From contig NC_049565.1 in NCBI RefSeq assembly GCF_013368755.1, forward strand, positions 868,001-932,000: DNA of 64,000 nt, read 5' to 3'. A program made the translations under genes and the position numbers. Below are positions 1-48,045 of the stretch, in pieces; the first letter of the stretch is position 1; the number at the start of each line of letters is the position of its first letter. Origin of the DNA: Talaromyces rugulosus (Eukaryota; Ascomycota; Eurotiomycetes; Eurotiales; Trichocomaceae). Under the pieces are notes generated by a model. The model made no database searches and was not told the DNA's origin. It saw only the letters and a list, made by a program, of their open reading frames with translations.

Positions 1-954
1 ACGCTTCCCAATATGCCCCTGCATACTCGTATTGTTTCGTTGTGTGCGGTTCGACTATGCCCTTCACTCTTTCGCCATTGATCCCTTGTCTATGCTGATC
101 TGCGCCATTCTTGCGAGCGGTATTGAGGAAGGATTTCGATTTCTTTCGGGGAGCCATCAGGTTAGATACGTGTGCTGCTTTGAATTGCAAACAGCAATAA
201 TAATAAAAAAATACCAAGTAGATTGTATTGAATAGAATGGTTCAATCCCAGGAGCTGAGTTCACGGCTTTATCGTCCCATGATCTCCCCTCCGATTGGAA
301 CGAAGGAAATTGGCCATGGAAATTCCCAACTCCGCTCCAGGGGATGAAATGAGCCGTCGCAACGCATCTCGTCTAAAGTTGACGATATTCAGATAGTACG
401 CGGCTTAGACGAGCAGTAGATGGAGGGCGAAGAGGGCAGGCAGCAGCAACAAAGCAGCCAGAACGGGAGTTGACGCGAGCAGAGTATGAGCTTACGGGAT
501 TTGAGGGAGTGCTGACGGGAGCACGACGGAAGCCAGGGAGCCTCTGGAGGGGAGCAAAGCGGCGGGAGGCTAGGTCACATGCATCACCGACGGAACTGGT
601 TTTTCGTAATAAACAACTGAAAGTAGTAAAAAAAGTCTATCTTTATATTTCTTTTTCCAAGAAAGGATAAGTTTCTCTATATGCCCCATTGTACCAGTCA
701 GGAGATATCTTTGGTGTATACACTGAAAAGATTTGATTCCGTTATAATTAAATCTCTGGCACGTTGCCATCGCCCGCATTCTAAGTCCTATCATAGCCAT
801 CAACGCATATACTTGGACAAGGCTGGAAGGACATCATACAAAGACCAACGGCCTGGTCTGCTCCGTCTCGTAGAAGCTGACCACCTTGTGGCCCCGGATC
901 AGATTCTTGAATCGGCAAATAATAATGGCCATGCAAATCAAACGAAGAGTCACC
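1..954. other. Intergenic, no supported gene
   Basis: Only short overlapping open frames on both strands, none with a recognisable domain, start context or splice structure. Nothing else seen. Confidence 0.5.
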
Positions 955-1312
955 CCTGTCGTTCCCCGACCTATGAGCCCGTTCACTGTATCGGCTGATT
1001 TAGATCTAATAAAAGACTATCACCGACTAGGTGTGGTTCTGCCACCAATCCCTTCGCGTACGGTAACCTGGTGAAGTTCAGAGCCTGCAGTGTAGTGGTG
1101 GAGACGCTCATCTTCCACATCACTTTCGAGTGTGGTAGAGCACAGATTGACTCGCCGGCCCATCTGGTGCTCTGGACTGGTTACTACGTCATCCTTGGAT
1201 ATATACATGCATACAACAACAGCCAGAAGCAGATTTAATGGCGTTCTGAAAGTGAACTTTATCGTTCCAAGCCGAGTATAGTGCCAATATCTCCCGGGGA
1301 CCGCGCAGGCCA
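955..1312 (-). repeat. Dispersed repeat copy R1 (inverted relative to 16199-16745)
   Basis: Read on the minus strand from about 1312 down to 955, this stretch is clearly related to the plus strand at 16199-16330 and 16546-16745. Shared blocks include GGCTGTTGTTGTATGCATG, AGATGGGCCGG and GGTGGCAGAA. The second copy has about 215 extra bases between the blocks. Both copies contain a short open stretch reading TLESxVEDExL, so the repeat may derive from a coding sequence or a mobile element. No terminal repeats or target duplication are visible. Boundaries are approximate and the family is unidentified. Confidence 0.6.
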
Positions 1313-1622
1313 TGGGTCAGTATTCCTGTGCCTGCAACGGATTCGGATCCGTGGCTCTAGATCACCGCGATCCTAGGAAGCCAGTGTTCCTGTGACTGTT
1401 TATCTGGGACTGTGGGACTCCGCGGAAAGGGGTCCTGAGATTGTCAGATTTACAGGAGGATACGCCTAGGAAAAGTAAATGAATCTTAAATTCAATTGAA
1501 CTAATGTAGAAACAATGATTATCAACATAAATCCCGAAAAGAAAAGAGAGAGAAAAACACGACTAGCAAAATACAAACTTCAAGCGTAGTATAAAAAAGC
1601 ATGTTAGACAGGTTATAAGCGT
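1313..1622. other. Intergenic, with a decayed paralogous tail near 1575-1622
   Basis: Mostly unremarkable. Just beyond the stop codon of the 1623-3356 gene, the minus strand from 1619 to about 1573 encodes a 16-codon stretch (YNLSNM then YTTLEV) matching the fragment at 4529-4750 (YNLSNM then YTIFEV). It is therefore probably residual coding sequence of the same family rather than a true 3' UTR. Confidence 0.4.
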
Positions 1623-3356
1623 TTACTCAGTCGCCAATCCACGAGTTCCTCTAGAGATTGTGGGTCTTCTCACAAAATTCTTTTTGATTTGGGCAATCTC
1701 TTCTTCCTGACGTTGGATCTCGGCGCAATTTTCATGGAAAGCTGGAGAATTAGCGAAGATTGCATTCCCTGGGAAAAATTTCTTTCTTCCATCAATTGTG
1801 TGAAATATAACTCTCGGGAAGAGACACCAGGGTTTCATCTTAGATATATTTCCCGGCTCGGAGTTTGCTTCCACATCAGCTAGTCCAAGATCCGGGCAAT
1901 CTTCTGCTTTCCAGCCCGGACTCCAGACTGAGGGCGGCTGAAGATCGAACGCAACCACGCAGCTGTCTCTTTTCAGCTCATCCCAGATCCTAATAGACTC
2001 AAGAAGAAGCTCTTCAAGGTCTATCTCGAAATCTTTGTGTTTTTGTTTCGGTATTAGCCGTTGAAGAATCTCGGCAATTCTCTTGACTTCCGGGCGGACT
2101 TGGCAGCGATCTTGTGAGGAAGTTGGCATATCAAGACCCTTAAAGGTGAGGTTTCGCCAAAGACTTTCTTTATAACGGTCCTCCTCAAATAACTTGTTGG
2201 ATATTTGGGACAGTGGAGCTACTGCCTCGGATGTGAGACTTCTAGCAGTGACGTAGAAAGGCTGCCAAAAGCAGCTGCAAATTGCTTCGACGATTATACA
2301 TTGCGCACCGCGAACACGAAGAAACCTGGATGCCACGGACGCGGACAAAGAGATTGTTCCAAAGATGCTTTGTAGCTTCGTGAACTCCTTTTGAACCTCA
2401 TCGATGTCCTTTTACTGTTAGAAACAGAACTCGAAACGGTGTACATATACCTACCAGTTCATTTTCTGGCGGCAAGTTACACAAGTAAGTCTGTGTGATA
2501 GCTCTTATCTTTTCACGTAAATTTGAGAATGCGTTCTCGCTACCAGGAGGTTAGTGTCAAAAGAGTATTAAGGTGGATCAAAACTTACTAGTGTTCAGTA
2601 GATAGGCTCTGGATGGGATGTCTCGATTCAGACTCCTTCAGCTGCGATTCCAACTCCGTGACGTTTTTGACGTATAGTCCTAGAGTCTTCTCAACCTGGG
2701 CCTTTTCTGTGCGGAGAGCATTGACTTGGCTCTAGAGTTTTGCGGTTTCTTCCTTTGCGAGCTGGAGTGGTTTTGCGTAATCTTTCACGAGTCTGTCCTT
2801 CTCTGCGTCGAGCTTCCTTTCGTACTTCGTCTGCTGTTCTTTGTCGAATTGCTTGCGCCGTTCTTTTTCTTGTTTTTTTTCAGCCTCAAACCTCTGTTGA
2901 TTATCAATCATAGTAAGCTCCCGTTGCTCCAGTTCAATCAAGCGATTTGAATTTTCTTCGATCTCTTCCTTCAATCCTTGAAGTTCTTCGTTGTTAGAGT
3001 GTTTCAGTTCCTGGATCGCAGAAGAAAGGGATTTGATTTTTTCATCTTTTTCCATAAGACGATCCAGTGCATGTTCAATCTTATCAACGTCATCGTTGTA
3101 AGATCCTAAAAATTGAACGAGATTGGTGATGCGAACAATAGCGTCTCGCGGTATTGTACCGGCAGCGTTGAAAGTAGCATGTTTGTCGCTGTTCTCTGCT
3201 TTTCTCCGACCATTACTTGGTTCTAATTTTCTTTTCTCCCGTCTCGACAGGGTTGGCGAAGAGTTCTGGTAGGACTTGAGTGAGTTAGCTCAAAACAAGT
3301 TGTGGAGGAGACTGTATTACCTGCGAATCGGTTGGACTCTGAGAGCGACCGTTCAT
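1623..3356 (-). pseudogene. Long coiled-coil hypothetical protein, frame intact except one internal TAG
   Basis: Four exons on the minus strand splice into one frame: 3356-3321, 3265-2589, 2539-2455 and 2408-1623, with GT-AG introns of 55, 49 and 46 bp. The total is 1584 bp, about 527 residues. The start ATG at 3356 gives MNGRSQSPTDSQ. A basic patch (SRREKRKLEPSNGRRKAEN) is followed by an extended charged coiled coil at about residues 75-235, rich in E, K, Q and L. The C-terminal half is a mixed region with no domain I recognise. The only defect is an in-frame TAG at 2732-2734, about codon 190, in the coiled coil; a C-to-T change of CAG would explain it. All splice sites and the rest of the frame are preserved, so the lesion looks recent, or a sequence error. 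The true C-terminus may have been longer, because homology to 4529-4750 continues past the stop. Function unknown. Confidence 0.65.
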
Positions 3357-4528
3357 TGCGATAAGTCGCTTTATGGGACCCACCAATAAAGAATTCCCAC
3401 TTTTCTGGTCGACCATGGAGGACTTAGTTACCATCTACACTACTGGGAGATTTTGGACGCTTATAAGGCAAAAAGGCATCAGTTACATTTTTTGAGCCCA
3501 TTGTAAATTGATACGTGTCAGAGGGAGAGTGTGCTTGCATCATGGTTCGCCTCATTCACTAGACAGGGGTAGAGATATATAATGCTGCTCATTCGAGCAT
3601 TGTTTCTTGGTGCAAGGTAAAGCTCATGCAGTATGTTGGACCGATACGGCTACATCTACGTGTCATGGCAAAAGGTGACTTCCATTACAAAGTGAGGCCA
3701 TGCGGCATGTAGGCAGTGCTACATGAACAAGGCTGAAAGATCCGTGCTGCATAACTTTGATGTCTCTCAGTCATCCTTTGGTTTCCATCATTCTCACAAA
3801 CCGCCTCGTCTTTCTTGATTTAAGTCGGTAGAAATTGGCACATGATTCATGGGCGAGTTATGCTCCAAGCTATTGGAGAGAGTCTGTAAGATAATCTAGG
3901 CTATGGGATACAAGACTTGATTACCCCGCAATGATACAAATTCGAAGCTATTAGAGGAGAACATGTAGCACTAATTATGCAGATAGCCTTGTCCGAGCTT
4001 TACAAGAATTTAAATGTGCATGATACTGGTCTAGTTAGGCTTGCTTTTCTATCCTTCGCCCTCCTTGATTTTGGAGAGATATGGCTGCTTGATTGGCTCA
4101 GAGGAACCCGTGGAAGAACTCATCCACGCTAATGATTTGCACCAGTCCTGGCGTGCCGCGTGCGACGTGAAGGGCAATCGCCGCTCATTGTTGATTGGAA
4201 AGTCGTTACCAACAAAGCCTTGAGAAGTCTTATGAATCTCTCTTTGTTTGCGGAACTACCGAAAGTATTGATGACAAATGAAGTACAATATCTCACTTTA
4301 GTTTCTGGAAGGGGAATATGTTTGAACAGGGTACTCAGGACGTCTTTTGCGCGGAAGACAGGGAAGGAGCAACAGAGAATGCCTTGTATAATGACATGTG
4401 AATCATTCACATGTAACAAATGTAAATTGCTACTTTGTCAATACTGTTGAACCTCTTCGGAACATGTGAATGGAGAGAAAATAGATCCATTCTATGATGG
4501 ATCTAATCGGGCCCAGGCATGAGACCGC
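3357..4528. other. Intergenic, no supported gene
   Basis: Upstream region of the coiled-coil gene and spacer to the 4529 fragment. The short open frames around 4041-4450 overlap on opposite strands and show no domain. Nothing else seen. Confidence 0.45.
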
Positions 4529-4750
4529 TCACGGCTGATAATCAAGGACTGCCATTTTCACTTTTTGATCCAAATAGTCTCGTAGTATCAGCTGGGTTCG
4601 GTCACGGACCTGGTTGGATGCTGCCACTACAATATCGTCATTCGATAGATGGGCTTCACAAAAAACCTCAAATATAGTATAAAGACGCATGTTAGACAGG
4701 TTATACTCATTCATTGTGTTGACAATGTACGATTGTTGCTCTGACATCAT
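4529..4750 (-). pseudogene. Fragment paralogous to the tail of the 1623-3356 gene
   Basis: A 73-residue minus-strand open frame contains NEYNLSNMRLYTIFEV, which matches 12 of 16 residues encoded just past the stop of the upstream coiled-coil gene. The DNA at 4676-4714 aligns with 1590-1628. It continues with VRDRTQLILRDYLDQKVKMAV and ends with a stop at 4529. A plausible intron acceptor (ACAG) lies just upstream near 4762, so it may be the last exon of a larger decayed gene. I see no complete gene around it. Best read as a duplicated 3' remnant of the same unknown family. Confidence 0.4.
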
Positions 4751-4983
4751 ATAGATAGAACGGATCTCTGTTTCCTCACGATGGTAATTGACGAGATTAA
4801 AAAACTACCTACCGCTACCATTGTTATCGACCTCGGTTATCCTCTGCAGAAGTAACCCCTAAGAGCGTCTAAGGACTACCTAATACTGGACGTTGATCGC
4901 AAACACAAATTGTAATATTCACGCGATCAAAACATCCTCGTCAAAAGCAGATATTGAAAGCTAAGCAGATATATACATGCCAA

Positions 4984-6072
4984 TCACTTTACCCCGAACG
5001 TCGCGTAAATGGGGCCATCATTCGTTCCAACCTGAAAACCGGAGTTATTACTTCCGAAAGTAATGCTTGTATAATGATCTCCTTCCTTCAGAACATTAAC
5101 CATTCTTGCTTCCTGTTCCACCTGCTGGGGAGCAATTCGATACAAAAGGTCTTTGGCATAGGCAGCTGCAACCATGGCCGCATATCCCTGCCAGGCTTTG
5201 TTCTTATGCGAGTCAGCATAGTCGCAGATGCCTCGGATTACTAGGCAAGGAAAGTGGTTCTTCAATCCAGCTGCTTCCATTTCAAAGCACAAAACGTCTT
5301 TTTGCGCAGCCAATTTGTCTCGGGCCAAAGCATCTTTCATGAGTTGGTTGGCTGAGGCAATGAGGCCGTAATGAATTGCTGGATTATCATCATCTTCGGT
5401 GCGGGGAGATCGCGGCACTAGGCAGGATGGATCCTCTCCGCAACTCAAAGTGCAAGGTAAATCACTGCCTAGGGGATGAACAACCTGACTTCGGTATAGC
5501 TGATCACTAGCTAAATCTGGGCGCTGATATTTCCTTCGTAGTCGCGGCTTTTTTTCGAGGATCTTATGGACCGTTTCGTTGAGTTGGTTTCCTTCGCTCT
5601 CATACTGGGCTTCGAGTCCATTTACTGCTGCGCGTAGGACAGTGGGTGGCTGGTCTAAAAAGCTTGTGGGCTGGAAGGCTTGGCCCTGGATCGTCTTGCC
5701 AAAATCATACTGAAGGACACCGCCCTGGCTATTGCGGGGAATGCTAACCACGACATCTCCAAGACGGATATCATGCTTTTGGCTTGGCGCGCCGCCACCG
5801 ATGCCGACCATAAGGCCGATACGGATATTCGGAAAGCTATGCATCATATCTTCTGCCACCCGAGCTACCGAGCTCGTGCCATATTCACCCATGGGTAGAA
5901 CGAAAATAACCACATTATGCTTCCAAACTCTTCCTAACGTGTAGTCGGTCTTGTTGTGGGGCGGTAGATACGCTGGGCGGTCATGTTTTTCGTCGAGGAA
6001 CGCTTGGGCCGCAACATATTCAGTGTTTATAGCGCAAATCCAACCGACAGTGTAGTCTTCCGGGTTAGACAT
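4984..6072 (-). CDS. PNP_UDP (nucleoside-phosphorylase-fold) protein with C-terminal GFQVG motif; putative NLR-partner effector
   Basis: Single-exon, 362 residues. The start is ATG at 6072 ([15 protein letters not shown]), preferred because the open frame upstream begins only with TTG. The fold of the phosphorylase superfamily 1 (PNP/UDP/MTAP) is shown by [14 protein letters not shown] near the start, [11 protein letters not shown] at about 86-96, RLGDVVVS at about 103-110, [12 protein letters not shown] at about 267-278 and [18 protein letters not shown] at about 286-303. In fungi this domain is a common N-terminal effector of STAND receptors. Here it stands alone and ends with [20 protein letters not shown] at about residues 338-357. 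That tail matches the first exon of the NB-ARC gene transcribed divergently 404 bp away (14 of 20 positions identical). The core G-F-Q-V-G fits the RHIM/PP-type amyloid motif pattern. Inference: a cell-death or nucleotide-hydrolase effector triggered by the neighbouring receptor. The catalytic activity is not provable from sequence. Confidence 0.88.
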
Positions 6073-6476
6073 CACGAAGGCACAGGTAAATGTAGGAAGT
6101 GGAGAAATCGCCAACGTAGCAAAGAGGCTGTTGGCGTTGGTGTGTGGATACCTGGGTTTATGGCAGCGATGTCCTTCAAGGGGACCAAAGGGAGGGAGGG
6201 AAGAGGAGGCTAATCACTATTCAGCCTCGCCTACTGCCTTATTTATGCGTTAATAAAACACGTGATATTTTTGGAAACATATCAAGCTGCATAGACCGGC
6301 CTATAAATAGTCTAGGTCAGGATTTTGGGCAGGGCAGGGCGGTAATATTCCGATGGTGACTGGTTGAAAGGACGGACGCGTCGGCATTTTGCGGGTTTGG
6401 AAACGTATGCGACACCGTTCATTCGACCAGGTCTATGTTGTCACTTGGGGGACCCCGCTGTCAATAGGTTCGATAG
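6073..6476. promoter_or_regulatory. Bidirectional intergenic promoter of the PNP/NLR pair
   Basis: The 404 bp between the two divergent start codons holds a CACGTG E-box near 6259 and a TATA-like CTATAAATAG at about 6301-6310, which is roughly 170 bp upstream of the receptor start. Co-regulation of effector and receptor from this shared region is an inference from orientation and spacing. Confidence 0.45.
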
Positions 6477-8475
6477 ATGGGGGGAAGAGAGCCCCAACTT
6501 GGTGCTAAGCCCACGGAACGCCTAGCTATATCGTTTGGTGACAAGAATTCCGGGTTCCAGGTGGGGATCAGCCACGGGCCTATATATGTTCCAGCGGGTG
6601 AGTTCCACCAGCCATGAAATTGAGCTCAGGTCGGACTAACAAATAGTGGCCTCCCCTTCTAGACCGACCGGAGCCTCGCCCAGAGCCTCTGTGGACTGTG
6701 CCGTTCCCATACGATCCAAACTTTGTCGGCCGTGATGGACTCCTTGATCAAATCCACGAAAAGTCCTCGATCCCGGGGTCTAGAATAGTACTTGTCGGTC
6801 TAGGGGGCGTTGGGTTAGACATCACAGGCGTAATGGCGCCCATTCAAGGCTAAGTTTATAATAGGAAAACTCGGCTTGCCATCGAATACTGCCACCGGGT
6901 CAGACAGCAATCGCCTGACACCTGGGTTTTCTGGGTTCATGCGAGTAATGCGGCTCGGTGCGAGGCAAGTCTACGCAACCTTGCCGACCGTGCTAAGATT
7001 CCCGGACGCCAGGACCGCAACGCAAATATATTCGAACTCTTCGGGAACTGGTTGCAAGACGGAAAAATCGGAGAATGGATCCTTGTTCTTGACAATGTCG
7101 ATGATGACGACCTCCTTCGCAAACCATTAACAACTCCTATCGAGGCCCGCGGAAACGCCCAGAACCATGCCTCGACGCAGCCACCGCTCAGATACCTTCT
7201 CGAAAACTCGAATGGCTCTGTCATTATCACGAGTCGGAATAAAGGAGTAGCATTGGAAATTGCCGGCTATAAGAAGAATCTGATCGATGTGCAACCGATG
7301 ATTATGGCCGAGGCGCTAGTTCTAATGCAGAAGAACCTAGATTGTTGTTCTGAGAGAGCGGACATAGTTCCGTTGGTGGAGGAACTTGAGTTTATGCCAC
7401 TCGCGATTGTGCAAGCGGCTAGCTATATCACCCACCGTTCACCCAGTTGCTCGGTATCACAATACCTAGAGAAGCTTCGGCAGAGTGATCGTCAAGCCAC
7501 AAAGCTTCTTAATCATGAGGGACACCACACGCACCGAGACTGGGAGGCAAAAAACTCTATTCTATTGACATGGCAAATATCGTTCGACCATATCCGAGGA
7601 ACTAGGCAGTCTGCGGCTAACCTGTTATCTCTGATGAGCTTTTTCGACTGGCAGGGAATCCCAGAGGATCTTCTACGGGTTCAAGGTATGGAAAAAGAGC
7701 ATGAAACTATAGGTTTTTCGGGAGAAAGCGTGGACAGCTCTAGTGAAGTGGATACGGATAGTTCGTCTGAATGCGACCCAGATGACGAGTTCGAGAGCGA
7801 CATTACGACTCTCAGAGACTATTCTTTATTGCTACTAGTGAAAATAGCATGGTGTTCACGATGCATCGGCTAGTTCAGCTCACGGTACGCACGTGGTTAA
7901 AAACACATGGCCTGGAGGAGGAGTGGAAGGAACAATTTATTGAGAATCTACATGCCGAATTCCCCACCGGTGAATATGAGAATTGGGAGAGATGCCGATC
8001 ACTCTTTCCGCATGTTAGATCAGCGGTGTCACATCGACCGAAATCGCAAGACACTCTACGGAGCTGGGCTGCTATACTTTACCGGGGGGCATGGTATGCG
8101 AGAGGATGTGGCAATATCTCGGATGCACGCGAAATGGCATATATGTCGAGAAAGGAGAGAATAAAGATTAGCGGCGCGGAAGATGAAGAAGCCCTTAGCA
8201 GCACTGCCATGTTAGCAGACGTATACCGTTTCGAGGGCCGATGGGAGGAGGCAGAGAAGCTTGAGGTGCAGGTCATGAAGACTCACAAGACGAAGCTCGG
8301 CGCAGATCATCCCTCGACGCTGACGAGCATGGCCAACCTTGCATCGACGTATAGAGACCAGGGCCGATGGGATGAGGCAGAGAAGCTTGAGGTGCAGGTC
8401 ATGGAAACAGGATTTCTCAACCGAAGCCAAAGAAAACTCCATACACTGCCGCGGGACAGAACCGGTCCGTCGTAA
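6477..8475 (+). pseudogene. NB-ARC/TPR STAND receptor (fungal NLR) with N-terminal GFQVG motif; 1-nt frameshift
   Basis: Exon 1 is 6477-6597, exon 2 is 6663-6813 and exon 3 starts at 6865, with introns of 65 and 51 bp. The start ATG at 6477 directly follows an in-frame TAG. Exon 1 encodes about 40 residues containing SFGDKNSGFQVGISHGPIY, the counterpart of the tail of the divergent PNP protein. Exons 2-3 give YDPNFVGRDGLLDQI, the P-loop GLGGVGKTRLA (split by intron 2), Walker B LVLDNVDDDD, GSVIITSRN, MPLAIVQAASYI (GLPL-like) and MHRLVQ (MHD position). Two kinesin-light-chain-type TPR units with near-identical DNA follow (about 8221-8406). The frame breaks near 7825-7827: the NB-ARC frame runs to a stop at 7873 while the continuation (TSENSMVFTMHRLVQ) is in the next frame, consistent with one base lost from a T run. 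The TPR array is very short for the family and ends in non-TPR sequence, suggesting array contraction. Role in the family: self/non-self or intracellular sensing that nucleates effector assembly. Confidence 0.85.
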
Positions 8476-8773
8476 CAAATGAAATCCTCCAGTTTAACCA
8501 TGGAAATTTTTGAACTTGGCTCTTAATACGTTTATAGTCCAATTCTCTCTCTCGAATGTTTTGTTATATATGAAGCTATTCAAAGCAGCATCAGCATGCG
8601 AAGGCATTGAGCAGGATAACCTAACAATGTAGACCGAATAAACAGAGTTTTTAATTCCTTTCTCTTTTATCATCTTATCTTCGCTTGACCATAGAGCGAT
8701 AACTTGTCCCCGCTGCGTTCCTGGCGCGATCCACTGGCAGGATAAAGAACCTTTTGTTCCTGGTATAGACTTA
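8476..8773. other. Convergent intergenic spacer
   Basis: Lies between the 3' ends of the receptor and the minus-strand paralog X1. Short open frames only, nothing recognised. Confidence 0.4.
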
Positions 8774-9364
8774 TTATGCTTTTTCAACTGCAAGATTGAA
8801 GAGCATATCCGCCACGGGGATCATGACAGGATGGTTATGGAATTTGTAGATGTACCTGCTCATATGCAACAGTACCTCAGGCTTAGAATCTTGTGGAATA
8901 CGTCGGAGTAGCCTTTCATGGGCCACCCAAAAAAAAGGGTGGAATGCATTAGGTACCCCTGCAGGTCTTGTTCTATTTTTTCTGGAAAGTGCGTTTATCA
9001 TATCATACTCATTCATTTGCTGGTTAAAAAAGACGTGGATTAGAAAGAAAATTTCCTGATAGAATATCTGGGTACTATTATTGAATCTTATAGGCTCGGG
9101 TATCCAGGATTGTATTGCAATATGGGCATATCCTGCAAGGGTATTATTAACAATGTTGGTCATTGCATTCTGTTGTTCATGTTCATTGCCCTGATGAACT
9201 CCTCTGAAATGGCGAAGCCATAGGTCTTCAACATCAGTTGACCTGCTTTCGTAATATCGTTTTAGCCATGCTATTTCGTCTTTAAAGTACTTCCATAGAG
9301 TTGGATGTAAGTGGTATAGTCCGCTAAGAAGGATATTACAATGTGCAGTGTCCGCATTCGACAT
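8774..9364 (-). CDS. Hypothetical protein X1, paralog of 11704-12297
   Basis: Single-exon, 196 residues, no recognised domain, signal peptide or membrane segment. The start at 9364 (MSNADTAH) is chosen over the ATG three codons earlier because it aligns with the start of the paralog (MSDADATN). The two proteins are roughly 60 percent identical over their full length. The best-conserved blocks are YHLHPxLWK near residue 17, VHQGN, FHPxFW, HERLLRxIPQDS and PEVLLHMSRYIYKFHN near the C-terminus. The conserved His, Trp and Arg residues suggest a folded globular domain under selection. The genes are inverted relative to each other on both sides of a glucanase gene and share upstream DNA (9487-9585 against 11503-11604). 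Function unknown. Confidence 0.7.
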   Translation of the reverse strand: MSNADTAHCNILLSGLYHLHPTLWKYFKDEIAWLKRYYESRSTDVEDLWLRHFRGVHQGNEHEQQNAMTNIVNNTLAGYAHIAIQSWIPEPIRFNNSTQIFYQEIFFLIHVFFNQQMNEYDMINALSRKNRTRPAGVPNAFHPFFWVAHERLLRRIPQDSKPEVLLHMSRYIYKFHNHPVMIPVADMLFNLAVEKA

Positions 9365-9486
9365 GGAAGGCATTCAAAGTATTCTCTGTAGATATTGGAT
9401 TTCTGCTGTATTAACAATAAAACAACTGTTTTGTTGATCTTGTTCTTCTTTCAGGAACGTTTGAGTTGATTTTAGATTCGAAGGGA

Positions 9487-9585
9487 AAACAATCAGATTT
9501 ATAGTATTTTGCCCGTTTAGTCTCGGTGCCATTTCCGCCACCACGGCCCATCATGGAGCCAGTAGTAGCCCCTTGTGCGTAAGTC
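9487..9585 (-). promoter_or_regulatory. Conserved upstream box of paralog X1
   Basis: On the minus strand this contains CAAGGGGCTACT, GGCTCCATGATGG, CCGTGGTGGCGGAAAT and CTATAAAT in the same order and spacing as 11503-11604 upstream of the paralog. It is either promoter sequence carried along with the duplication or a conserved regulatory element. The ACTATAAAT is a plausible TATA box for both genes. Confidence 0.5.
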
Positions 9586-9998
9586 GGAAAAGCCAGAGCT
9601 TATCCATCCTATCAATTAACAGTTGTTATCTTTGCTACGTAAATTTCTTGAATTATTATTTCATATAATATTAAGTCCATGAAATTCTTTCTAGTTCTGA
9701 CCTTGAAACGGGTTTGTAACTGAGCTCTATAACGATGTCTTTCCTTTGGGCCGTTTAAATCCACCCTAGATGAGGGTTTCATAATAGAAATTTGTCGCTA
9801 TTCAAAATCTTGATACGCATATCACTACGTCCCGAGTACGTGGCTGGCGGCGCGTAGTTGGCTTCTAGGTCGCTTAACCAAACAGAGCTTGGAGAGTAAA
9901 TAATGACATTAATACTTCAATGATATCTAGAAACACTGATGCGTTTATTTAAAATTTCTCTAACTAAAGGAGTTTAGATAAGATTTATGTGGGCATTT
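9586..9998. other. Intergenic between X1 and the GH16 gene
   Basis: AT-leaning spacer with no supported gene. It contains TAAACGG and CCCTAGATGAGGG segments that also recur loosely upstream of the second paralog. Confidence 0.35.
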
Positions 9999-10935
9999 TC
10001 AAGATATATAGACAGCAACATAAGCGATCTCCATGTCGCTACCGTAACCATCGAGGATTTCAGAGTTAGGATACCCAGGCTAAAAAAGCAAATACGGTCA
10101 GCTCATCTTCTACTATACGTAAGGCCTATAAAAACAGGCACTAGCATCAACATACCCAATTGCCGCCCACGGCCACATTGAGGATAAAGTATAGCGGGTT
10201 ATGACATAGTGTTGCCCATGTGTCTGAGTTACCAGTTTGGGATCCAGTGATTTGATAGAAATTCTGGCCATCCATGGACCACGTAATAGTTTCAGACTCC
10301 CATGAGGAAGGGGTCCGGTCCCAGGTTATACGCCATGTATGCCATGACTGATCAGGGATAGTGATGCTCCCCCCAAGTGCGTTAGGTTCCTTGCACATGC
10401 CATCTATGGTGACATCGCAAAAGTGTGAAGTGCCATAGCCCGTCAACTGACCATTGATAGTCTCAAGAATGTCAAGCTCCCCACACTCGGGCCATATAGT
10501 CCCTGAGTGGACCGAGTTACCCAGTATCCAGAAAGCTGGCCATATGCCCTGTTTATTCGAAACGGAATTACTTCCAAACCGGATATTGGCCTCGGCAAAA
10601 GTGACCTCTCCCGTACCTGGAGTAAATACATACTTACTCTCGATCCGACCTGAAGTCCATCCGCCAGAAATAGAGCTATCCATCCATGGGATTAGCTGTA
10701 GAGTGCCGCCACCACTTAGCTGAACATTAGTATTTGAGCTAGTGTATGTTTCAAGCTCGCCATTAACTTCTAGGTTCCCTATTATGATATTCCAATTATT
10801 AGTGTTAGGCAATGCTCCCGCAGAGCCAGTGAAGCTATCGCTCCACAACGGCATATACCCTGAGTACGAAGGGGGGGTCCAGGCCAAGGCCAAGGAAGTC
10901 AATGCCAGGAGGAAGGAAGTAGAATAGTTATTCAT
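9999..10935 (-). CDS. Secreted GH16 family endo-beta-1,3(4)-glucanase
   Basis: Two exons on the minus strand: 10935-10156 and 10079-9999, separated by a 76-bp intron (GTATGT to TTAG). Without splicing the frame stops at once. Product 286 residues. An N-terminal signal peptide is visible (hydrophobic FLLALTSLALAW at residues 8-19, processing expected near there). The catalytic motif GELDILETING (ExDxxE type of GH16) lies at about residues 151-161. WPAFWILG precedes it and the beta-sandwich finish FILNVAVGGNWPGYPN spans the splice, where the second exon supplies the conserved end through VAVYIS. Known role of the family: hydrolysis or remodelling of mixed-linkage or 1,3-beta-glucans outside the cell. 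Both predicted catalytic glutamates are present, so it looks intact. It sits between two inverted paralogs of unknown function. Confidence 0.88.
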
Positions 10936-11502
10936 CTGTAAGATAAAATTCAGTTACCAAACAGAATTCAGAGGTAAGCAGGCGGCCAGGAAATTCACTC
11001 GCGCGTCAAGAAACATGTAGGTCGACGATCAGCGATGAGGTTAGCCCTTAGATAAGATGATTGCTAAAAATCTTCTGGTATATAGCGACCAGTTTCGAAT
11101 ACGACAGCCAATTTGGCGTTGAAAAGGGTTCTAGGGCTTTATAACTGTGACTTTCAAAGGTACCGCTTTTGGCTCCCAACCGACAGGTGCGATATCCGCC
11201 TCCATGGTCGACCGTAAGTATCCAGAAGTAGCTCCCTCGACACGAATTTTCTAAAAAACTCGTAAGCCCAACTTGGGTATTTTTCAGTTCTTTGGTTTTT
11301 AACGGTGTTTTATATGTACACGCTGTGTGCTATATGCAAGATGTTTTGTAATTGTTAGGTTATTCTAGTGCGTTCCCGCCCTAGATGGGTACATCCGAAC
11401 GAAAAGCCATACGGAGATGCACACGTCAATTGAGTATATTAGATGACAGCCGTCATGGAATATTTTTCGAGTGTTAGGTAAGTTCTGGCCCTTTTAACTT
11501 AG
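10936..11502. other. Intergenic; contains a third degenerate copy of the X-gene upstream box
   Basis: No gene seen. At about 11165-11265 the plus strand carries TTTTGGCTCC, CTCCATGGTCGACCGT and AGAAGTAGCTCCCTCG in the same order as the upstream boxes of the two paralogs. This hints at a third, lost or partial duplicate upstream region. Confidence 0.4.
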
Positions 11503-11604
11503 AACAAGGGGCTACTCTTGGCTCCATGGTGGACCGTGGTGGCAGAAATAGCCCCGTCCTAGATTCTAAACGGCAAGCACTATAAATGTGATTAATCCCT
11601 ACAA
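11503..11604 (+). promoter_or_regulatory. Conserved upstream box of paralog X2
   Basis: Contains ACAAGGGGCTACT, GGCTCCATGGTGGACCG, TGGTGGCAGAAATAG and CACTATAAATGTGATT, matching the minus strand at 9487-9585. The TATA-like element lies about 120 bp before the ATG at 11704. Confidence 0.5.
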
Positions 11605-11703
11605 ATTTGAAATAAATTCGAGTATCAACGAATACTTAGGTCAATAAAACTGGTGTTGTATTGTTAATACAACAGAAAAAAGAGAATACTTTGAACATCT
11701 TCC

Positions 11704-12297
11704 ATGTCGGATGCGGACGCTACAAATAGTAATATCCTTCTCAGTGAACTATACCATTTACATCCAAATCTATGGAAACACTTTGAGAACGAAATAGCAT
11801 GGCTGAAAGAAAATCACAGAAACACGTCAACCGACATTGAAGACCGATGGTTTCACCATTTCAGAAAAGTTCATCAAGGCAATGCAGAAGAACAACAGAA
11901 TGCAATAATCAACATTCATAATAATCAGATTGCAGGATATGCCCAGCTTAACATACAACCATGGAAACCTCGGCCTATAAGATTTGATGATAGCACCAAT
12001 GAATTCTATAGGATAATTTTCGCTAACATCCATGCCTTCTTTCTCCAGCAAACGGCTGATTATGATATGATTCACATACTTTTAGCAACAAATGACGCGA
12101 GACCTGAAGGAGCACCTAACAAATTTCACCCTTATTTTTGGATGCCTCATGAAAGACTGCTTAGGACTATTCCACAAGATTCTATGCCCGAGGTACTATT
12201 ACATATGAGCAGGTATATCTACAAATTCCATAACTATCCAGTCATGATCCCCCTGGCCGACTCGCTCTTCAATCTTGCAGTTGAAAAAGTGCCATAA
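11704..12297 (+). CDS. Hypothetical protein X2, paralog of 8774-9364
   Basis: Single-exon, 197 residues, start MSDADATNSN at an ATG. Aligned end to end with X1 and about 60 percent identical. The blocks LYHLHPNLWKHF, KVHQGN, FHPYFW, HERLLRTIPQDS and HMSRYIYKFHNYPVMIPLAD are the best conserved. No transmembrane segment, signal peptide or known domain seen. Both paralogs remain open with conservative changes, which argues that both were maintained after the duplication. The gene is inverted relative to X1, with the GH16 gene between them. It could be a lineage-specific accessory family; I do not assign a function. Confidence 0.7.
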   Translation: MSDADATNSNILLSELYHLHPNLWKHFENEIAWLKENHRNTSTDIEDRWFHHFRKVHQGNAEEQQNAIINIHNNQIAGYAQLNIQPWKPRPIRFDDSTNEFYRIIFANIHAFFLQQTADYDMIHILLATNDARPEGAPNKFHPYFWMPHERLLRTIPQDSMPEVLLHMSRYIYKFHNYPVMIPLADSLFNLAVEKVP

Positions 12298-13003
12298 GTC
12301 TCGCAGGACCAAAAAAGTCCAACAGTGGGTCGGTTCAGAAAGTAGCGCAAGAGGGCGAGTTATCGGCACAACCATGGAAAGGTTATATGATCAAGAGGAA
12401 GGTGATAATTAGACAAGGAATTTAAAACTCTATATTTATTCAGTCGATATTGTGCCCTCACATGCTGATGTTGGTTTAAATAGCTACGTCGTAAGAGCCA
12501 AGTTTAGAATCTTCCATAATTAAAATAGACTGTACTATCTATCATGAATATACGACAAATCAACGGTCTAGAGTCGATGCTATTTATCAAAAGAGGACTC
12601 ATCGTTTAGGCAACAAGTCCACTACATATTACCCTTCCGCAGCCCTACACATAGAGGTTAATAAGGAGAGTTCTTTGGCTTTTATGACCACATTCATTCT
12701 TGTCAGTAAGAAATTTGCCCTGCCATGTTCTCAATTAGAATTATTTTCGCTGAAAATTTTCTCTCATAATCACGTGGATTACGTTAGCAAGTTAGTGAAA
12801 CACAAAATATCCCTAACAGAGACACCCCTCGTGAGAACCTAGCCAACCACCTCTTCCGTTGCTGGAGGGAATAATAGGCTATTCTCGCTCCACGTGAGGC
12901 CTAATCTGCCGAGAGACCTTTCTAGACTTGGCCTGCAGACGTGATGTCTTAGTTTACGAGGCACCAACAAAACATCAACTAATTATATGCTGACTCGAAG
13001 TGA
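12298..13003. other. Intergenic, nothing recognised
   Basis: No coding frame, repeat or RNA gene that I can support lies between X2 and the DUF7924-like gene. Confidence 0.4.
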
Positions 13004-14635
13004 TTACTTAGTCAGTTTCTGGGTAAGTTGTTCCAACTGAGCTAGAAGTCTGTCTTCTCGTTCTCTTTGCTTTAATAGCAGTTTTTCTTCCCGTGCCTTT
13101 TGTTCTGCTTCTCGCTTCTCTTCTCGCTCCCTCTGCCGCTCCAATTGCGTCAGCAGCTTGTCTTCTCGGTCCTTCTGCTCTGCTAATTGTTGCTGCAATG
13201 TCTGAACCATCATGCGTAGCTCTGGTTGTAAGCCTCGACCCAGTGAGGATGTTGTTCGGCGTAGCCCGGAACGCTCCTGGGACCCGATGCGTGACACCTG
13301 AGATTCGATCTCAACATCGTCACTCAATGAGTATTCTTCTAGTTCTGGAACATCTTCTAGTAATCGTATCAACCGGTCGGTATGAATCGGTAGAAATTCA
13401 CGGTCAACGTTCTCCATAAAACGATAGCATGCCCATTTATCCTCCTTCGTCCAGATGTTGAGTTGCGCAACTGGCCAGCGGAAATATGATGTATTCCCGC
13501 CATCAATTTCAGGATAGTACCCATATATCCGAAGCCCTTCAAGTTCATGAGACAAGGAAAAGCCGAGAATCCTCCGGTGTACCTTTTCAGGACAACCCGC
13601 GGCCCGAGACAGAGAAACCACAGCTCGCACGGCGATACACATGCTGTGCATGTTCTGCCGGTCCGCGAGCTCCAAAGCCTGATTCCCGCATTTGATTTCC
13701 GCTGTCACATAAGGGAAGTACATGTCTTCTCGAGCTGTATATGGTGATTTATCATCTGGTTTGATTCCCAGTCTTCGCCGTTGACTCTCTGAAAACGTCG
13801 ACCATTTCAAGCCTCGCGCGTGATCTGGCTGTGGCTTTGGGCCATAGATTGGCTCTGTCTTGACCCACAGATCATTATATCCATCAATGACATCCTTCAG
13901 TCTTGTCTTTCCCTGGATAAATTGATTCTCGGCGGATGGCATGAGAAGAGGGTGTAGGTCCACAAAAAGACGCGCTTCTGACCGATTCTGCAATGCATTG
14001 TGAAAGTCCGTAATGTATTGATCATCGAACAATGTGCCTTGGGGGGGTTCGATCGGTTGATGGAGGAGTCGCTCGCAGAGCGCAATGTCGTCGGGGTGAG
14101 GACCAGAGGATGACTGTCGCATGAAGCAACCTTTAGTCTCGAGAATTGTAACGTAGTTGACAGCCTTATACGCGGATGACTTGGCATCTCGAGCCGAGCT
14201 CCTGTCACTGTCCGACGAGAGGGATCGCGCCCGCCCACGATCAGTGGAGATCGACCGCGATCGCGATCTTTTCGATGCCGGTTGGCTCATATTATCCAAC
14301 TCACCAATCTCGGATGGTGCGGGTATCCAGTCAAAAATTTTATCAGTATGTTCTGTCGCCGTATTCGTGAGGGAAAGCCTAGTCGTTGCTTGACGCTCCA
14401 AATTGACCGGATTCTAAGACAGTCAATTACTTCAACACTACGAGAGGGAATTGTAACTAACCTCACTGTCAGGATTGGGAGAGAAGGGTGAAGGCGGATG
14501 TTGTACTGTGATCTGCTCTTCTTGGTCTCTCTTTAGTGATCCTGAGGGGGTGCTCAAACTCTCCTGCCGTCGTACTTTGGCCGGTCGCTCGTCATGGCCG
14601 CTGTCATGTAAACAGGGAGATTGCGCACGTTTCAT
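13004..14635 (-). CDS. DUF7924-like nuclear protein with PD-(D/E)xK-like core and C-terminal coiled coil
   Basis: Two exons, 14635-14462 and 14413-13004, with a 48-bp intron (GTTAGT to TTAG). 527 residues. The ATG at 14635 (MKRAQSP) is the first ATG; the frame upstream opens only with GTG. Basic clusters (RPAKVRRQ near residue 20; SKRSRSRS near 100) look like nuclear localisation signals. The centre has LFDDQYITDFHNAL, YNDLWVKTEPIYGPKPQPDH and YFPYVTAEIKCGNQALELADRQN, the hallmark block of a large uncharacterised fungal family (DUF7924, from memory). PD followed by E-x-K resembles the PD-(D/E)xK nuclease fold. The last 80 residues are a charged coiled coil with repeated REREEK units. The protein looks complete. 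Alternative: a degenerate, non-catalytic member of that fold. Confidence 0.7.
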
Positions 14636-16198
14636 AGTGAACTTATTCCCGTTCAGAGAAGCGCAAATCTGGCGCTCGCACAAGGCAGAAGACACGGATA
14701 ATCGTAGGACATTGTTTCATCGGTGTGGTAAGGAGTTGGTTCTTTGGTGGTAGAGCGACGAAATCGATTCCGCTGGCGCCGAGCCTAGCGACCATGGTGG
14801 GGCGTTTACGGATGTCCAACCAAGAATACGCAGGCGCCCCGGGCGACGATCTTACCTTGGCATACTGCCTAAAAATAGATCATACATATTTACTCTGATG
14901 TTTTATGTTTACTCCGTTGTGCATGGATGAGGCGTCCCTGGAAAAAAAAGGGATGACGTCAATGGCTTCCGCAACTGTGTTTCACCTAGGTTGTTGCCTG
15001 GACTTGCTGAGCGCAAGGCTGAGCCAAAACGTCAAGCCACGTCCCCGATTTCATGTCGATCCGGATCTCCGTCGCATACCGTTCCTGGAAATGTAAGGAG
15101 GATCATGCGTGGACCAGAAATTACCCCTCATTTGGGGAAATAATTATAAGACGTATGGTTTTCTTCCGCACGTTATCCGGATTTCATAAATCGCAAGCCG
15201 AGCCTCCAAATCGTCGTTTCCCGCAATTTGGGGTTAGAGATTCTGTGGACCGGTTTCCTTTCGAAACTATTCGCTTCGATTTGATCGTCTAGACCCTGCG
15301 CCCCGCAGCCGGACTGTCTTCTTTGGTACCGTCAACTGGAAGGAATACATGAACTGGAATTCGGTTTTTCTCGGGCACAACGACCATTTTGAGTCCCTCA
15401 CCAAACGAACTACCTTGATTTCTATCACACCAACCATTATCTCAACGGGTTCACCCTTATCCCAGTTGCGCCTTCCTGCTCACCCTCTTTCAAGACCATC
15501 ACTTTCCTAAGGTGCTGAATATGGCCCCACCTTTGAAAACCTGTCGCTCGCCCTCTTGTGGCCGGCAATCGCCTGCCTTCATTCACTAGCCACACCAAAT
15601 TCATTTTCATTTTATTTTATTATATTTCCTACGTTGGGCATATTGTCAAGGTGTTTATTTTTATTAGACACTCAATGGGAGGACAGATTCCTGAGAATTC
15701 TATGGTATTGTAGAGAGCAATAGAAAGATTTTTCCATTGAAAATTTGCCCTGCAGAGTGACGATACATACGGCCATAGCGCCTATCTTACAGGAGTTCCA
15801 CTGGCCGAGACCGTCGAAAACGACCTCAGAGAACTATATTACATCACCCCAGGGGACGGACACAAGAGCACAGGCACACCAGCCTAAACATGGAGCCTTA
15901 AAAGTTTGTGTTTAAGTCTGAGGCTGGTGACTGTATATTTCATGTTTATTTTGCCATATATGAATAAGTAGTTAGTTACTGTAGGAAAGCATTATCATCT
16001 AGATAGAGCCGTCTAATAGTTTGGATAGGATACGACATATCAACATTTTATGCGGGGAATCGAAGGAGATTTTGAAGGCCGTCCCCTCCTCACTGTGCAA
16101 ATTAGATGAGGCCCAGCCGCAAGACTTTACTTCTGTCCCATGGCAGTGGACGGACATTCTTTAGCTTCAGTTAAGAGATCCTGTGCAGATATAGGCGC
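14636..16198. other. Intergenic, possible short gene remnant near 15760-15885
   Basis: No supported gene. A plus-strand open stretch at about 15763-15885 (GVPLAETVENDLRELYYI and onward, ending in TAA) has coding-like composition but no start, splice partner or recognised family. It may be a relic. The rest shows only short random frames. Confidence 0.35.
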
Positions 16199-32602: not shown

Positions 32603-33136
32603 ATGTCGTCAAAGCAAAATATCGATAAAAACAATTTGTTCGCCCGTATTGTTGAAACCGGGATCGTTCTTCTTTTCCCTTGCCACAAGTGTGCTCTCTC
32701 AGGGAAGTCGTGTATTAAATCAGAAATTTCAAAGCGTTGCAGTGAGTGTGTTCGCAGCGGTCGCGGTCGCTGTGTTGAGATGGCGTCTTCGGATTTGGCA
32801 TGGAAGAAGTTGTTGGCTGCTCAAAAGAAAATTGAGGAGGATGAGGAGGCAACTCTAGCGAAACTTCTTCGTCTCAAGAAACAGCGGAAGCTGCTTCAGA
32901 AGCGCGCCGGTCAGTTTATCCAGACGGATATTAAGGATGTGGAGGAGTTGGAGCGTTTGGAGGAGAAGGAGGAGGAGGAACGGAAACGAGAGGCCGAGCT
33001 GCAAAAATCAAACGAGATGATTGCGGCTGCCATCCAGGAGTTTCCCGTGTCGTCTAACAACGAGTTCGACCACGTCCTTTCCGAGTTTCTTTCTGGCGAA
33101 ACGCTCGAATCTTTTCGGGGCAGTTCAAATGCCTAA
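32603..33136 (+). CDS. Antisense ORF of element A: Zn2Cys6-like cysteine cluster plus coiled coil
   Basis: 177 residues from an ATG at 32603, transcribed opposite to Gag-Pol and overlapping its 3' end by 83 bp (33054-33136). Residues about 27-58 have cysteines spaced C-x2-C-x6-C-x8-C-x2-C-x7-C (CHKCALSGKSC, then CSECVRSGRGRC). This is exactly the spacing allowed for the fungal Zn(II)2Cys6 binuclear cluster, although the usual R/K and P positions differ. A long charged helix (residues about 70-145, rich in E/K/R) and an acidic end follow. The gene begins 113 bp after the LTR, so an antisense LTR promoter could drive it. It has no counterpart in elements B or C here. A captured regulator or accessory protein is an inference; the ORF could be non-coding. 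The overlap region is constrained by both frames. Confidence 0.6.
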   Translation: MSSKQNIDKNNLFARIVETGIVLLFPCHKCALSGKSCIKSEISKRCSECVRSGRGRCVEMASSDLAWKKLLAAQKKIEEDEEATLAKLLRLKKQRKLLQKRAGQFIQTDIKDVEELERLEEKEEEERKREAELQKSNEMIAAAIQEFPVSSNNEFDHVLSEFLSGETLESFRGSSNA

Positions 33137-36100
33137 CTGGTTCCCATGAATTGTGTTCAGGTCCGTATCCTTTCCAGCTGACTAAGTAAAAGATTCTTCC
33201 TTCCACTAACTTTCTCTTCAGAATGTTTTCAACTTCATATTCATCCTCGGTTGCTTCGTCGTTACTGTTTTCTGGGTTTTCGGTTGGTTCCAATAATGAG
33301 ATGTGAAATACTGGGTGCACTTTCATTCTTGCTGGTAGTCGGAGTTTGTAATTGTCGTTGGCGAGTTTTTCTTGAATCGTGAAAGGTCCGTATTTGATAG
33401 CGTCAAGTTTGTTGCTTGGTCTCTTGCTTGGAATGTTGAAATTTTTCTGTCCAATTGTTCGTCGTAGTAAGTAAACTTTCTCCCCCTTTTTGAGGATTGG
33501 CGCGTCCTCGCGCTTCTTGTCGTAGTAGGTCTTCATTCGGTTTTCAGCCCACTTGATGTCTTTCGATATTGTCTGATGGAGTGCCTGTAGTTTGTTGGCT
33601 TGTATTATCGCGGCTTCGGATAATCCTTCTCGTGGTACTTCAGACCATGTCATTCTTGGGTGTCGTCCAAGATTTGCAAAATGTGGAACTTGTTTCGTCG
33701 TAGCGTTTTCTGCATTGTTTAATGCGAACTGTGCTAATGGTAGTAGTTCTACCCAGTTATCTTGTTCCCAGTCTAAATAGTGTCGAAAATACTGTTCAAC
33801 TGTTTGAATCATTCTTTCAGACTGGCCATCAGTCTGTTGGTGATTCGCGGTTGATAGTTTGTGATGCATTCCGCATGCTTTTGCAATTGTCTGCCAATAT
33901 TTGGATGTGAACAACTTGTCTCGGTCCGTGATGAGTTCGTTTGGTAATCCGGTCCATACAAAAACTTTTCGTAACATAAGTTTTGCACATTGTTCTGCTG
34001 TCATATCCTTTGGTGTTGGTTCTAGGATAACATATTTCGTAAGTCGGTCGACTGTTATTATGGCATCGGTGTAGGTAACTCCTGTTACTGGGTCCTTGGA
34101 CTGCGGTAGTCCTTGGATAAAGTCAACAGTGATACTTTTCCATGCTTCTTCTGGTACTTCCGGTATTTGCATTTTTCCAAAGGGTTTGTGGTGTACTGCC
34201 TTGTTTCTGTTGCATTCGTCGCAGTTTCTGATGTAATTCTCAACCCTTTTTCGGACATAAGGAAAGTAGAATGTTCGGGTAATCATTTCGATTGTCCTTT
34301 CAACTCCTTGGTGTCCTTTTGTTGGAGGATCGTGGTAGCGCTGAATGACTTCCGTAGTCATATTCTGCGGTACTCTGATCATTCCATTCCATATCGCTAA
34401 GCCTTTCTGAACATTTTTCGTAACTTGTCCGGCTTGTAATTCTTCTTGTATTTTTTGATCCTTGTTGGTTTCCTGATGCATTCGTTCGTAGAATGGATCA
34501 TCGTCAACAACTCTTATTGCGGTCGCAATGATTGCATTGTGGTTGTGGCGTAGAACTCCTGATTCTTCTTGCAGAATGTTTGTCTTGGGGGGTTCTATCC
34601 CGATCGCGTAATCTGGTCGTCTGCTTAATGCGTCTGCGGCTGCATTTTGTTTTCCTGGAATATGTTCAATCCTGTAATTGAATTTGGCTAGTTCTTCGGC
34701 CCATCGTATTTGTCTTCCAGATAATTCTTTTGTTGTCGTGAAGTATTTCAAATTGTGATGGTCGCTTTTGACGATTACTTCATGTTTTGCTCCTTGGAGA
34801 TAGTGTCGCCATTGTCGAAATGCTTGAACTATCGCGAGTAATTCTCGGTCGTGAACGTCGTAGTTAACTTCCGCCGATGTAAACTTTCTCGAGTAGAATG
34901 CGACAATCTGCGTTTCTCCCTTTTCATTGATTTGTTCATGGATTGCTCCAAGAGCATATCCAGATGCGTCTGTTCGTAGAATGCTTTGTAATTCTGGGTT
35001 AAACAGTTGTAATATTGGCGCAATTTTAACGAGTTCTTTAACGTTTTCAAAAGATCGTTGTCTTCTTGCTGTCCAATCAAATGGTTCGTCTTTTTTCAGC
35101 AATTCTGTCATTGGTGTTGTAACGTCTGAGTATTTCTCAAGATATCGTCGAACGTATCCGCTGGCTCCAAGAAAAGATTGTACGTCGTGGACGTTCGTTG
35201 GAGTTGGCCATTCGAGGATAGCGTCTAATTTTTCTTTCGGTATCTCTAGTCCGTTTGTTGTATATACCATTCCTAGGTAGTTGACTCGTGTGGTGTCGAA
35301 TTCACACTTCTTGATTTTGAGAGTCAATCCTGCTTCCATAAGTTTTGTCATAACCAGTCGTACATGGTTATCGTGTTCCTTCGGGTCTTTTGAGTAGACT
35401 ATAACATCATCGAAGTATACTGCAACGAAGAGGTTAAGGTATTCTCGTAGGATGTGGGTCATAAACCTCGCGAATTCTGCTGGTAGCCGTTTGAGTCCCA
35501 TAGGCGCTACTAGCCATTCGTACAGTCCCAAGTCTGTAAGGAATGCTGTTTTCCAGATGTCGTCATTTTTCATTCGTAGGTTGTAGTATCCCCATTCAAC
35601 GTCGAACATTGTCATGATTTTTGCACCTTGCAATAAATCTCTCTTCTGTTCCTGATGTGGCGCTTTGTTTGCGTCGTCTTCGGTCATGTTATTTAATTTT
35701 CGGTAGTCGATGACCATTCGTGGTGATCCGTCGCGTTTTGGTACAAACATTGCTTGTGCAGAAGCCTTTGCTTTTGATTCTCTGATGTAACCGGCTGCTA
35801 AGAATTTCTCAATGAATTCCTTAGTAGTTCGGAGTTCATCTTGTGAGATTTGTCGTTGCTTCACTTGTGGTACCTGTGCTCCTGCTTTGAGAGGTATCTC
35901 TGCTTCGTATTCTTTTTCGTGTTGTGGTAGTCGGTATTCTTTTTTCACAAATAATTCGGTAAAGTCTCGGTATTTCTCTGGTAGCTTGTCGAGCACTTCC
36001 TTCAGTTCCTTTTCGTAGATTTCTTTTGGTTTCCTTCGTGTTTCAATTTGTCGGCCTATTTCGTTTATTTCTTCAGCATGTTTCACCTTCAACTGCTGGT

Positions 36101-38843: not shown

Positions 38844-38903
38844 GATTAGCTCGTTAGTAAGGTTCGATTGCTTACCTAGTTCTCAAAACTTCGTGTTATG
38901 AGG

Positions 38904-47977: not shown

Positions 47978-48045
47978 CTTCTTAAAATTCTCGAAGTCAC
48001 GAGCTGTTTTGCATTTTGGCTCCTGCGGGCGACTTTGCGCAGGAG

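Follow-up and report, generated by a model that had tools for sequence, protein, structure and literature searches.

A divergently transcribed gene pair of Talaromyces rugulosus is probably a fungal NOD-like receptor (NLR) signalosome of the PP type (Ses_B, RHIM-like) in which the effector is an enzyme. The pair occupies positions 4984–8475 of the window, that is, the 64,000-nucleotide stretch NC_049565.1:868,001–932,000 analyzed here, whose positions are counted from its first nucleotide. Directly supported are the gene pair itself, the common motif and its family, the presence of that motif on both sides in relatives, and the usual active-site residues of the effector. The effector, a purine nucleoside phosphorylase (PNP) fold protein of 362 amino acids (aa), is encoded by a single exon on the minus strand (6072–4984; PNP_UDP_1, Pfam PF01048, E 2.1e-10). 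The receptor starts on the plus strand at an ATG at 6477, and a divergent intergenic region of 404 bp (6073–6476) separates the two start codons. These observations confirm the arrangement described in an initial annotation of this DNA, a PNP_UDP protein with a C-terminal motif and a divergent receptor 404 bp away, and likewise its view of the effector as a nucleosidase-fold enzyme rather than a pore former.

The two proteins carry closely matching segments at opposite ends. The effector motif (5002–5058, minus strand; 19 residues) lies close to the C-terminus, the 18-residue segment quoted in the initial annotation being followed by six further residues, and the N-terminal motif of the receptor, FGDKNSGFQVGISHGPIYV (6534–6590, plus strand), is identical to the effector motif at 13 of 19 residues, with a BLOSUM62 score of 72. 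When the receptor motif is compared with all 49,798 stop-free 19-mers of the window, read in six frames, the effector motif ranks first and the runner-up scores 30; the best score per shuffled window lies between 21 and 32 (n = 8). The initial annotation had the receptor begin with this motif; it is indeed present, far above chance, but stands near the start rather than at it, as residues 20–37 (FGDKNSGFQVGISHGPIY) behind a 19-residue leader. The DNA identity of the two motifs is low (34 of 57 positions) and 11 of the 13 identical residues are encoded by different codons, so that their likeness likely reflects conservation under protein-level constraint and not a recent duplication.

Both segments can be assigned to the PP family. 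In a genome scan with Ses_B (Pfam PF17046, cut-off 23.2 bits), the effector motif scored 26.6 bits and the receptor motif 22.8 bits, or 23.3 bits with its in-frame neighbors; the scan marked 11 places in the genome, 10 of which exceed the cut-off, the receptor one only with in-frame neighbors included. The effector core NSGFQVGTN fits the PP consensus NxGxQxGxN, while in the receptor core NSGFQVGIS the last Asn of the consensus is replaced by Ser, in line with the RHIM/PP-type core proposed initially. Effector and receptor are also adjacent, as is expected of PP pairs, in a divergent arrangement across the 404 bp. The PP consensus and its pseudopalindrome were defined in PMC3321046, the motif is termed ‘PP/ses_B’ in PMC8086366, and its core is described as RHIM-like in PMC7885112. 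Two other motif classes were rejected. The window motif, inspected by eye, has Q-x-G and not the Q-x-x-G of the PUASM pattern FxGxGxQxxGxGxF (PMC9815663), and NACHT_sigma, for the sigma class (PF17106), gave four matches genome-wide and none in the window. A PDB search with the motif peptide returned only designed repeat proteins (11 sequences), as chance partial matches.

It is highly improbable that these segments are flexible linkers of common ancestry with no amyloid role. The objection that the motif is an ordinary linker of single-chain PNP receptors, already raised in the initial annotation, is not borne out by the other PNP genes: G-x-Q-x-G is found behind the PNP domain at none of the 10 genomic PNP loci with long open frames, in an unspliced reading. 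The mean entropy of the tail is 1.19, as compared with 1.61 in the preceding linker, in 42 rows that were selected by the core and in which G, Q, and G are hence fixed. Moreover, the motif is shared by HeLo, SBP-like, Helo_like_N, and PNP effectors, and PP motifs have been reported as signaling in Podospora (PMC7885112).

Judged by its residues, the effector has a PNP fold with a nucleosidase active site. It carries the most common residue at the conserved columns E22, E268, M269, E270, R284, and D288 (residue numbers of PNP columns follow P0001 and are 4 higher than in the 362-aa protein). In a HMMER alignment, D288 coincides with the Asp of the SDxAD segment in the methylthioadenosine/S-adenosylhomocysteine (MTA/SAH) nucleosidases of the PDB, and we take it to be the catalytic acid; our literature search found no paper that numbers the active-site residues of MTA/SAH nucleosidases. 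PADLOC matches of the protein are PDC-M60C (E 4.2e-11) and ‘Effector, PN-superfamily’ (E 1e-9). Because of this PN-superfamily match, and because immune PNP effectors cleave ATP according to the reviews PMC10197012 and PMC11249213, the output of the window PNP would likely be nucleotide destruction and, with it, cell death.

The receptor gene, on the plus strand throughout, requires two introns to be read. Exon 1 (6477–6597) runs from the in-frame ATG and encodes the leader and the PP motif. It is followed by intron 1 (6598–6662, GTGAGT...CTTCTAG), a GT-AG intron at whose site the tblastn frames of relatives switch. Exon 2 (6663–6813) contributes the first half of the P-loop, which is split between GLGGVG and KTRLA by a second GT-AG intron (6814–6864, GTTAGA...AATAG), and exon 3 (6865–7831), in a frame open to 7873, encodes a nucleotide-binding module that is of NB-ARC type by its relatives. 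The spliced receptor starts with MGGREPQLGAKPTERLAISFGDKNSGFQVGISHGPIY and continues with the P-loop module and TPRs; its database protein is TRUGW13939_08845. The Penicillium antarcticum receptor (P0124) aligns with the window in frame 2 from 6662 to 7831 at 73% identity. The range first assigned to the pair (4984–6660) covers the effector and the intergenic region, but only the first exon and intron of the receptor, whose gene extends to about 8475.

The motif is retained on both sides in relatives, of which 120 listed rows each were covered for the PNP and for the receptor; partners outside these rows would be missed. Strict G-x-Q-x-G is found in the PNP tail of 20 of the 21 nearest relatives, the remaining one being degenerate, and of 35 of the 120 listed, and those PNP-PP relatives that are named belong to Penicillium and Aspergillus. 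Among the receptors, the core lies within the first 140 residues in 79 of 120 rows, the window’s own entry included. The initial annotation had staked its proposal on co-occurrence of the two genes in relatives. Linked pairs of a PNP-PP and a PP receptor do exist, in Penicillium sp. IBT 18751x (N7523_000076/_000077) and P. antarcticum (contig c182), but in only two of seven other comparable genomes, as judged by eye from locus tags and contig names.

The trees place the window genes among these relatives. In the PNP tree, the window protein belongs to a group of seven with full support, made up of Penicillium, one Aspergillus, and others at 83–91% identity, and is sister to the P. antarcticum PNP (support 97/89); the receptor tree is less clear (88/79). 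Talaromyces belongs to another family than these Penicillium and Aspergillus relatives. Horizontal transfer of the locus (4984–8475) is possible. An origin from a giant transposon was rejected, there being no DUF3435 match in the window; the genome holds 25 such matches, and the nearest on C5, at 587,911, is weak and sub-threshold.

We propose that, in a working signalosome of this kind, a ligand bound to the TPRs would cause the NB-ARC receptor to oligomerize, and the N-terminal PP motifs clustered in this way would adopt an amyloid fold. The receptor amyloid would then serve as a template for the PP motif at the C-terminus of the stand-alone PNP. Concentrated and switched on, the PNP domains would split a purine nucleotide, most likely ATP, at its N-glycosidic bond, and the resulting nucleotide depletion would lead to local cell death.

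Several observations weigh against the window pair as such a signalosome. When Ses_B is run on the single proteins, effector and receptor score 22.9 and 21.7 bits, respectively, both just below the cut-off. Conservation is stronger in the PNP domain than in the tail (mean entropy 0.85 versus 1.19 in the core-selected rows), and no close tags of the two genes were seen among the listed rows for P. fimorum, P. canariense, P. sp. IBT 16267x, P. longicatenatum, or P. argentinense. At two other PP loci of the genome, A and B, receptor A prefers its own effector by one point only, and receptor B finds its best effector elsewhere. Pfam NB-ARC has no match on the window receptor, either on exon 3 or in the genome scan, which gave 14 matches elsewhere, and DUF7779 reaches 20.7 bits on the exon 3 frame, below its cut-off of 27. 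The NB-ARC reading is adopted because relatives carry this domain: those up to 80% identical include NB-ARC-TPR proteins, and NB-ARC is found on P0140. Of the NB-ARC/TPR receptor named in the initial annotation, then, the TPRs are recognized directly (TPR_10, E 4.5e-19) and the NB-ARC part through relatives, in a gene whose frame is broken and whose repeats are shortened. Finally, the receptor copy in the sequenced strain is probably a pseudogene, since its conserved start is lost, a frameshift precedes the MHxLVQ motif, and the TPR array is truncated.

These lesions are spread along the gene. Relatives begin with MTSISFG, MASISFG, or similar, and this Met is an Arg in the window receptor, which uses an ATG 14 codons upstream of the relatives’ start, as does its database model P0150. 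Directly before the MHD-like MHxLVQ motif, at about 7820–7832 on the plus strand, the tblastn alignment of each of the three relatives tried leaves frame 2 at 7831 and resumes in frame 1 at 7825; the motif is kept in 113 of 120 listed receptor rows, and P0150 is among the seven without it. The out-of-frame remainder (7825–8475, plus strand) holds MHRLVQ and about two TPRs, matched by TPR_10 in two stretches, up to a stop codon at 8473–8475. Homology stops at 8409, or at 8439 in one weak repeat alignment, and P0124 extends 323 residues further; beyond 8439, no match to P0124 or two other relatives was found by tblastn against window 1–16000. Because the receptor is probably a pseudogene, the pair would show ancestral wiring, and the PNP may now be an orphan or be driven by another PP receptor.

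We regard it as quite improbable that the receptor still functions, with a frameshift that either stems from faulty assembly or base calling or is removed by splicing. Only a single assembly bears on this point, and P0150 bridges the lesion; that model does so, however, by omitting the MHxLVQ stretch that nearly all listed relatives keep. The shortened TPR array and the missing start codon, in turn, are independent lesions, and an assembly error could cover the frameshift alone.

A further alternative, which is quite possible although we hold it less probable than the PP pair, accepts the amyloid tag as real but regards the PNP as a free effector common to several PP receptors and its neighbor as a dead remnant. 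It draws on the three decay signs of the receptor, on the persistence of PP motifs in front of receptor frames at three other loci (A, B, and C), and on the non-adjacent pairs also suspected in PMC9815663. Against it stand the alignment scores: the two window motifs score 72 together, whereas the PNP motif scores 33–49 with the other three PP receptors. Conversely, when the window receptor is compared with seven effector tails, its own PNP scores 72, an orphan PNP elsewhere in the genome 63, and the other five 20–41. The effector of the own locus is the best for three of the four PP receptors (A, C, and window), with a clear margin for the window only.

The loci used in this comparison differ in their effectors. 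Loci A and B each combine a HeLo protein, an SBP-like tail, and a NACHT receptor, which is the known PP design; the SBP-like label is a reading, as Pfam gave Ses_B alone on those exons. The core of the HeLo protein at locus B was read by eye and has no Ses_B match, and the receptor piece there shows NACHT below the cut-off next to a good NPHP3_N match. At locus C, a Helo_like_N fragment (PF17111, here named PigL_N) that has no gene model adjoins a TPR receptor.

The orphan is a second PNP-PP gene (C5:3255926–3257008, minus strand), 63% identical to the window PNP, with an intact PP motif and an altered active site. It carries Asn288, Gln270, and Asp22, where 175 aligned proteins usually have Asp288 (168/175), Glu270 (172/175), and Glu22 (169/175). 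Four database proteins, 80–95% identical to the orphan, also have Asn288 and Asp22, one of them together with Gln270. The orphan and these four form a clade of five with 100/100 support, in which all members keep the PP motif and two carry the Glu270-to-Gln change. Next to this clade stand the PP-tailed P0246 and P0247, which keep Asp288 but have Thr for Met269. Asn288 also occurs outside this group: P0072 has it but lacks a PP tail, and P0032 has it together with a tail that resembles a decayed motif.

The orphan tail was compared with the same four PP receptors, and the window receptor is its best match, scoring 63 (others 31–44). The GH16 gene next to the orphan has a paralogue in the window (10147–10953), and neither blastn nor tblastn with three relatives found receptor traces between the orphan and its GH16 gene. 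No intact receptor for it emerged: the best-scoring receptor relative in the genome (C5:3287470–3289440) has no PP core in the 1600 bases around its start and sits, by reading, behind an apparent alpha/beta-hydrolase (SesB-like) frame. Between the two PNP paralogues, the domain has a dN of 0.23 and a saturated dS of about 1.9, which gives a rough sign of constraint only; outside the domain, dN is 0.62 in the linker and 0.22 in the motif, the latter on 21 codons.

From these residues and tails we tentatively suggest, while considering it unlikely, that the PP channel holds a maintained lineage of catalytically inactive PNPs with intact tails, which, like HET-s, may act toward the active PNP as a decoy or as a reservoir of the prion form. 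If so, the HET-s principle of inactive, prion-competent effectors would have evolved again in an enzyme system, and the lineage would offer a natural experiment on the damping of amyloid death signals. Alternatively, the Asp-to-Asn change may shift the cleaved base from adenine to guanine or hypoxanthine and thereby create a second enzymatic output; in trimeric PNPs, Asp to Asn alters base specificity.

PP is one of two amyloid motifs found behind PNP domains in this genome. Reading behind the domain in the best 30 of 87 PNP matches, some of which are exon pieces, revealed PP tails in two (the window PNP and the orphan) and a sigma tail in one. The sigma PNP (C5:3423008–3424183) lies next to a SesA-sigma protein and to a NACHT receptor whose repeats, by reading, are WD-like, in a cluster (C5:3417666–3424183) that has three NACHT_sigma matches over the cut-off within 1.7 kb. 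As read from these tails, the same kind of effector enzyme is plugged into two amyloid channels, PP and sigma, in one genome. Matches to PNP, NB-ARC, and TPR are dense across C5:3.25–3.43 Mb, which includes the orphan PNP, locus C, and the sigma cluster and, by its domain content, looks like an immune gene region.

Other features were observed in the window. The GH16 gene at 10147–10953 is flanked by two similar-looking frames of 199–200 aa with no Pfam match (8774–9373, minus strand; 11695–12297, plus strand), and two long-frame Gypsy/Ty3-type chromodomain retroelements occupy 33054–38882 and 44363–48067.

The initial annotation had presented the window pair as a candidate for an undescribed system, a claim that does not hold against the literature. 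Pairs of a UDP-phosphorylase and a STAND protein with matching prion-like extensions were reported from A. oryzae, A. terreus, and M. grisea (Daskalov et al. 2012, PMC3321046). They resemble the window pair in that a stand-alone PNP_UDP protein is encoded beside an NLR that has no effector domain of its own, in the matching C- and N-termini, and in their occurrence in Eurotiales; they differ in their ends, which were classed as sigma-type, whereas the window pair is of the PP/Ses_B type. Within this genome, the sigma cluster at C5:3.42 Mb is the arrangement closest to that report. Later work described PNP_UDP effectors with HRAM/NLR12, PUASM, and PF01048_015 motifs, and PUASM behaved as a prion (Wojciechowski et al. 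2022, PMC9815663). The PUASM pairs share with the window pair a PNP_UDP effector under an amyloid motif, in their case with in vitro and in vivo prion evidence. They are distinct in their motif (FxGxGxQxxGxGxF), in their NACHT or NACHT-WD40 receptors, and in their distribution in Pezizomycotina, mostly Sordariomycetes. As the design was published in 2012 and validated in 2022 for another PNP-associated motif, the general design of the window pair is already known and not new.

The PP systems offer the complementary comparison. The HELLP/SBP/PNT1 system of Chaetomium and HELLP/PNT1 of Podospora (PMC7885112) have the same motif family, an NB-ARC-TPR receptor, and adjacent genes. By contrast, these signalosomes act through a HeLo-like pore former and a putative lipase, with no PNP among their known effectors. 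PP accompanies both pore-forming and enzymatic effectors according to PMC9815663, and we found no explicit PNP_UDP and PP pair in the literature, a search that extended to that paper apart from its supplements. The bacterial Detocs PNP effector (PMC11249213, PMC10197012) likewise contains an immune effector domain of PNP fold, in keeping with the PN-superfamily match in PADLOC. The bacterial immune ATP nucleosidases are wired by other signals, however, and for the window PNP the cleavage of ATP is a prediction. It is the altered sister lineage that merits further study. The window pair would add an effector of nucleosidase fold to the RHIM-like PP channel, whose best-known targets are a pore former and a putative lipase.

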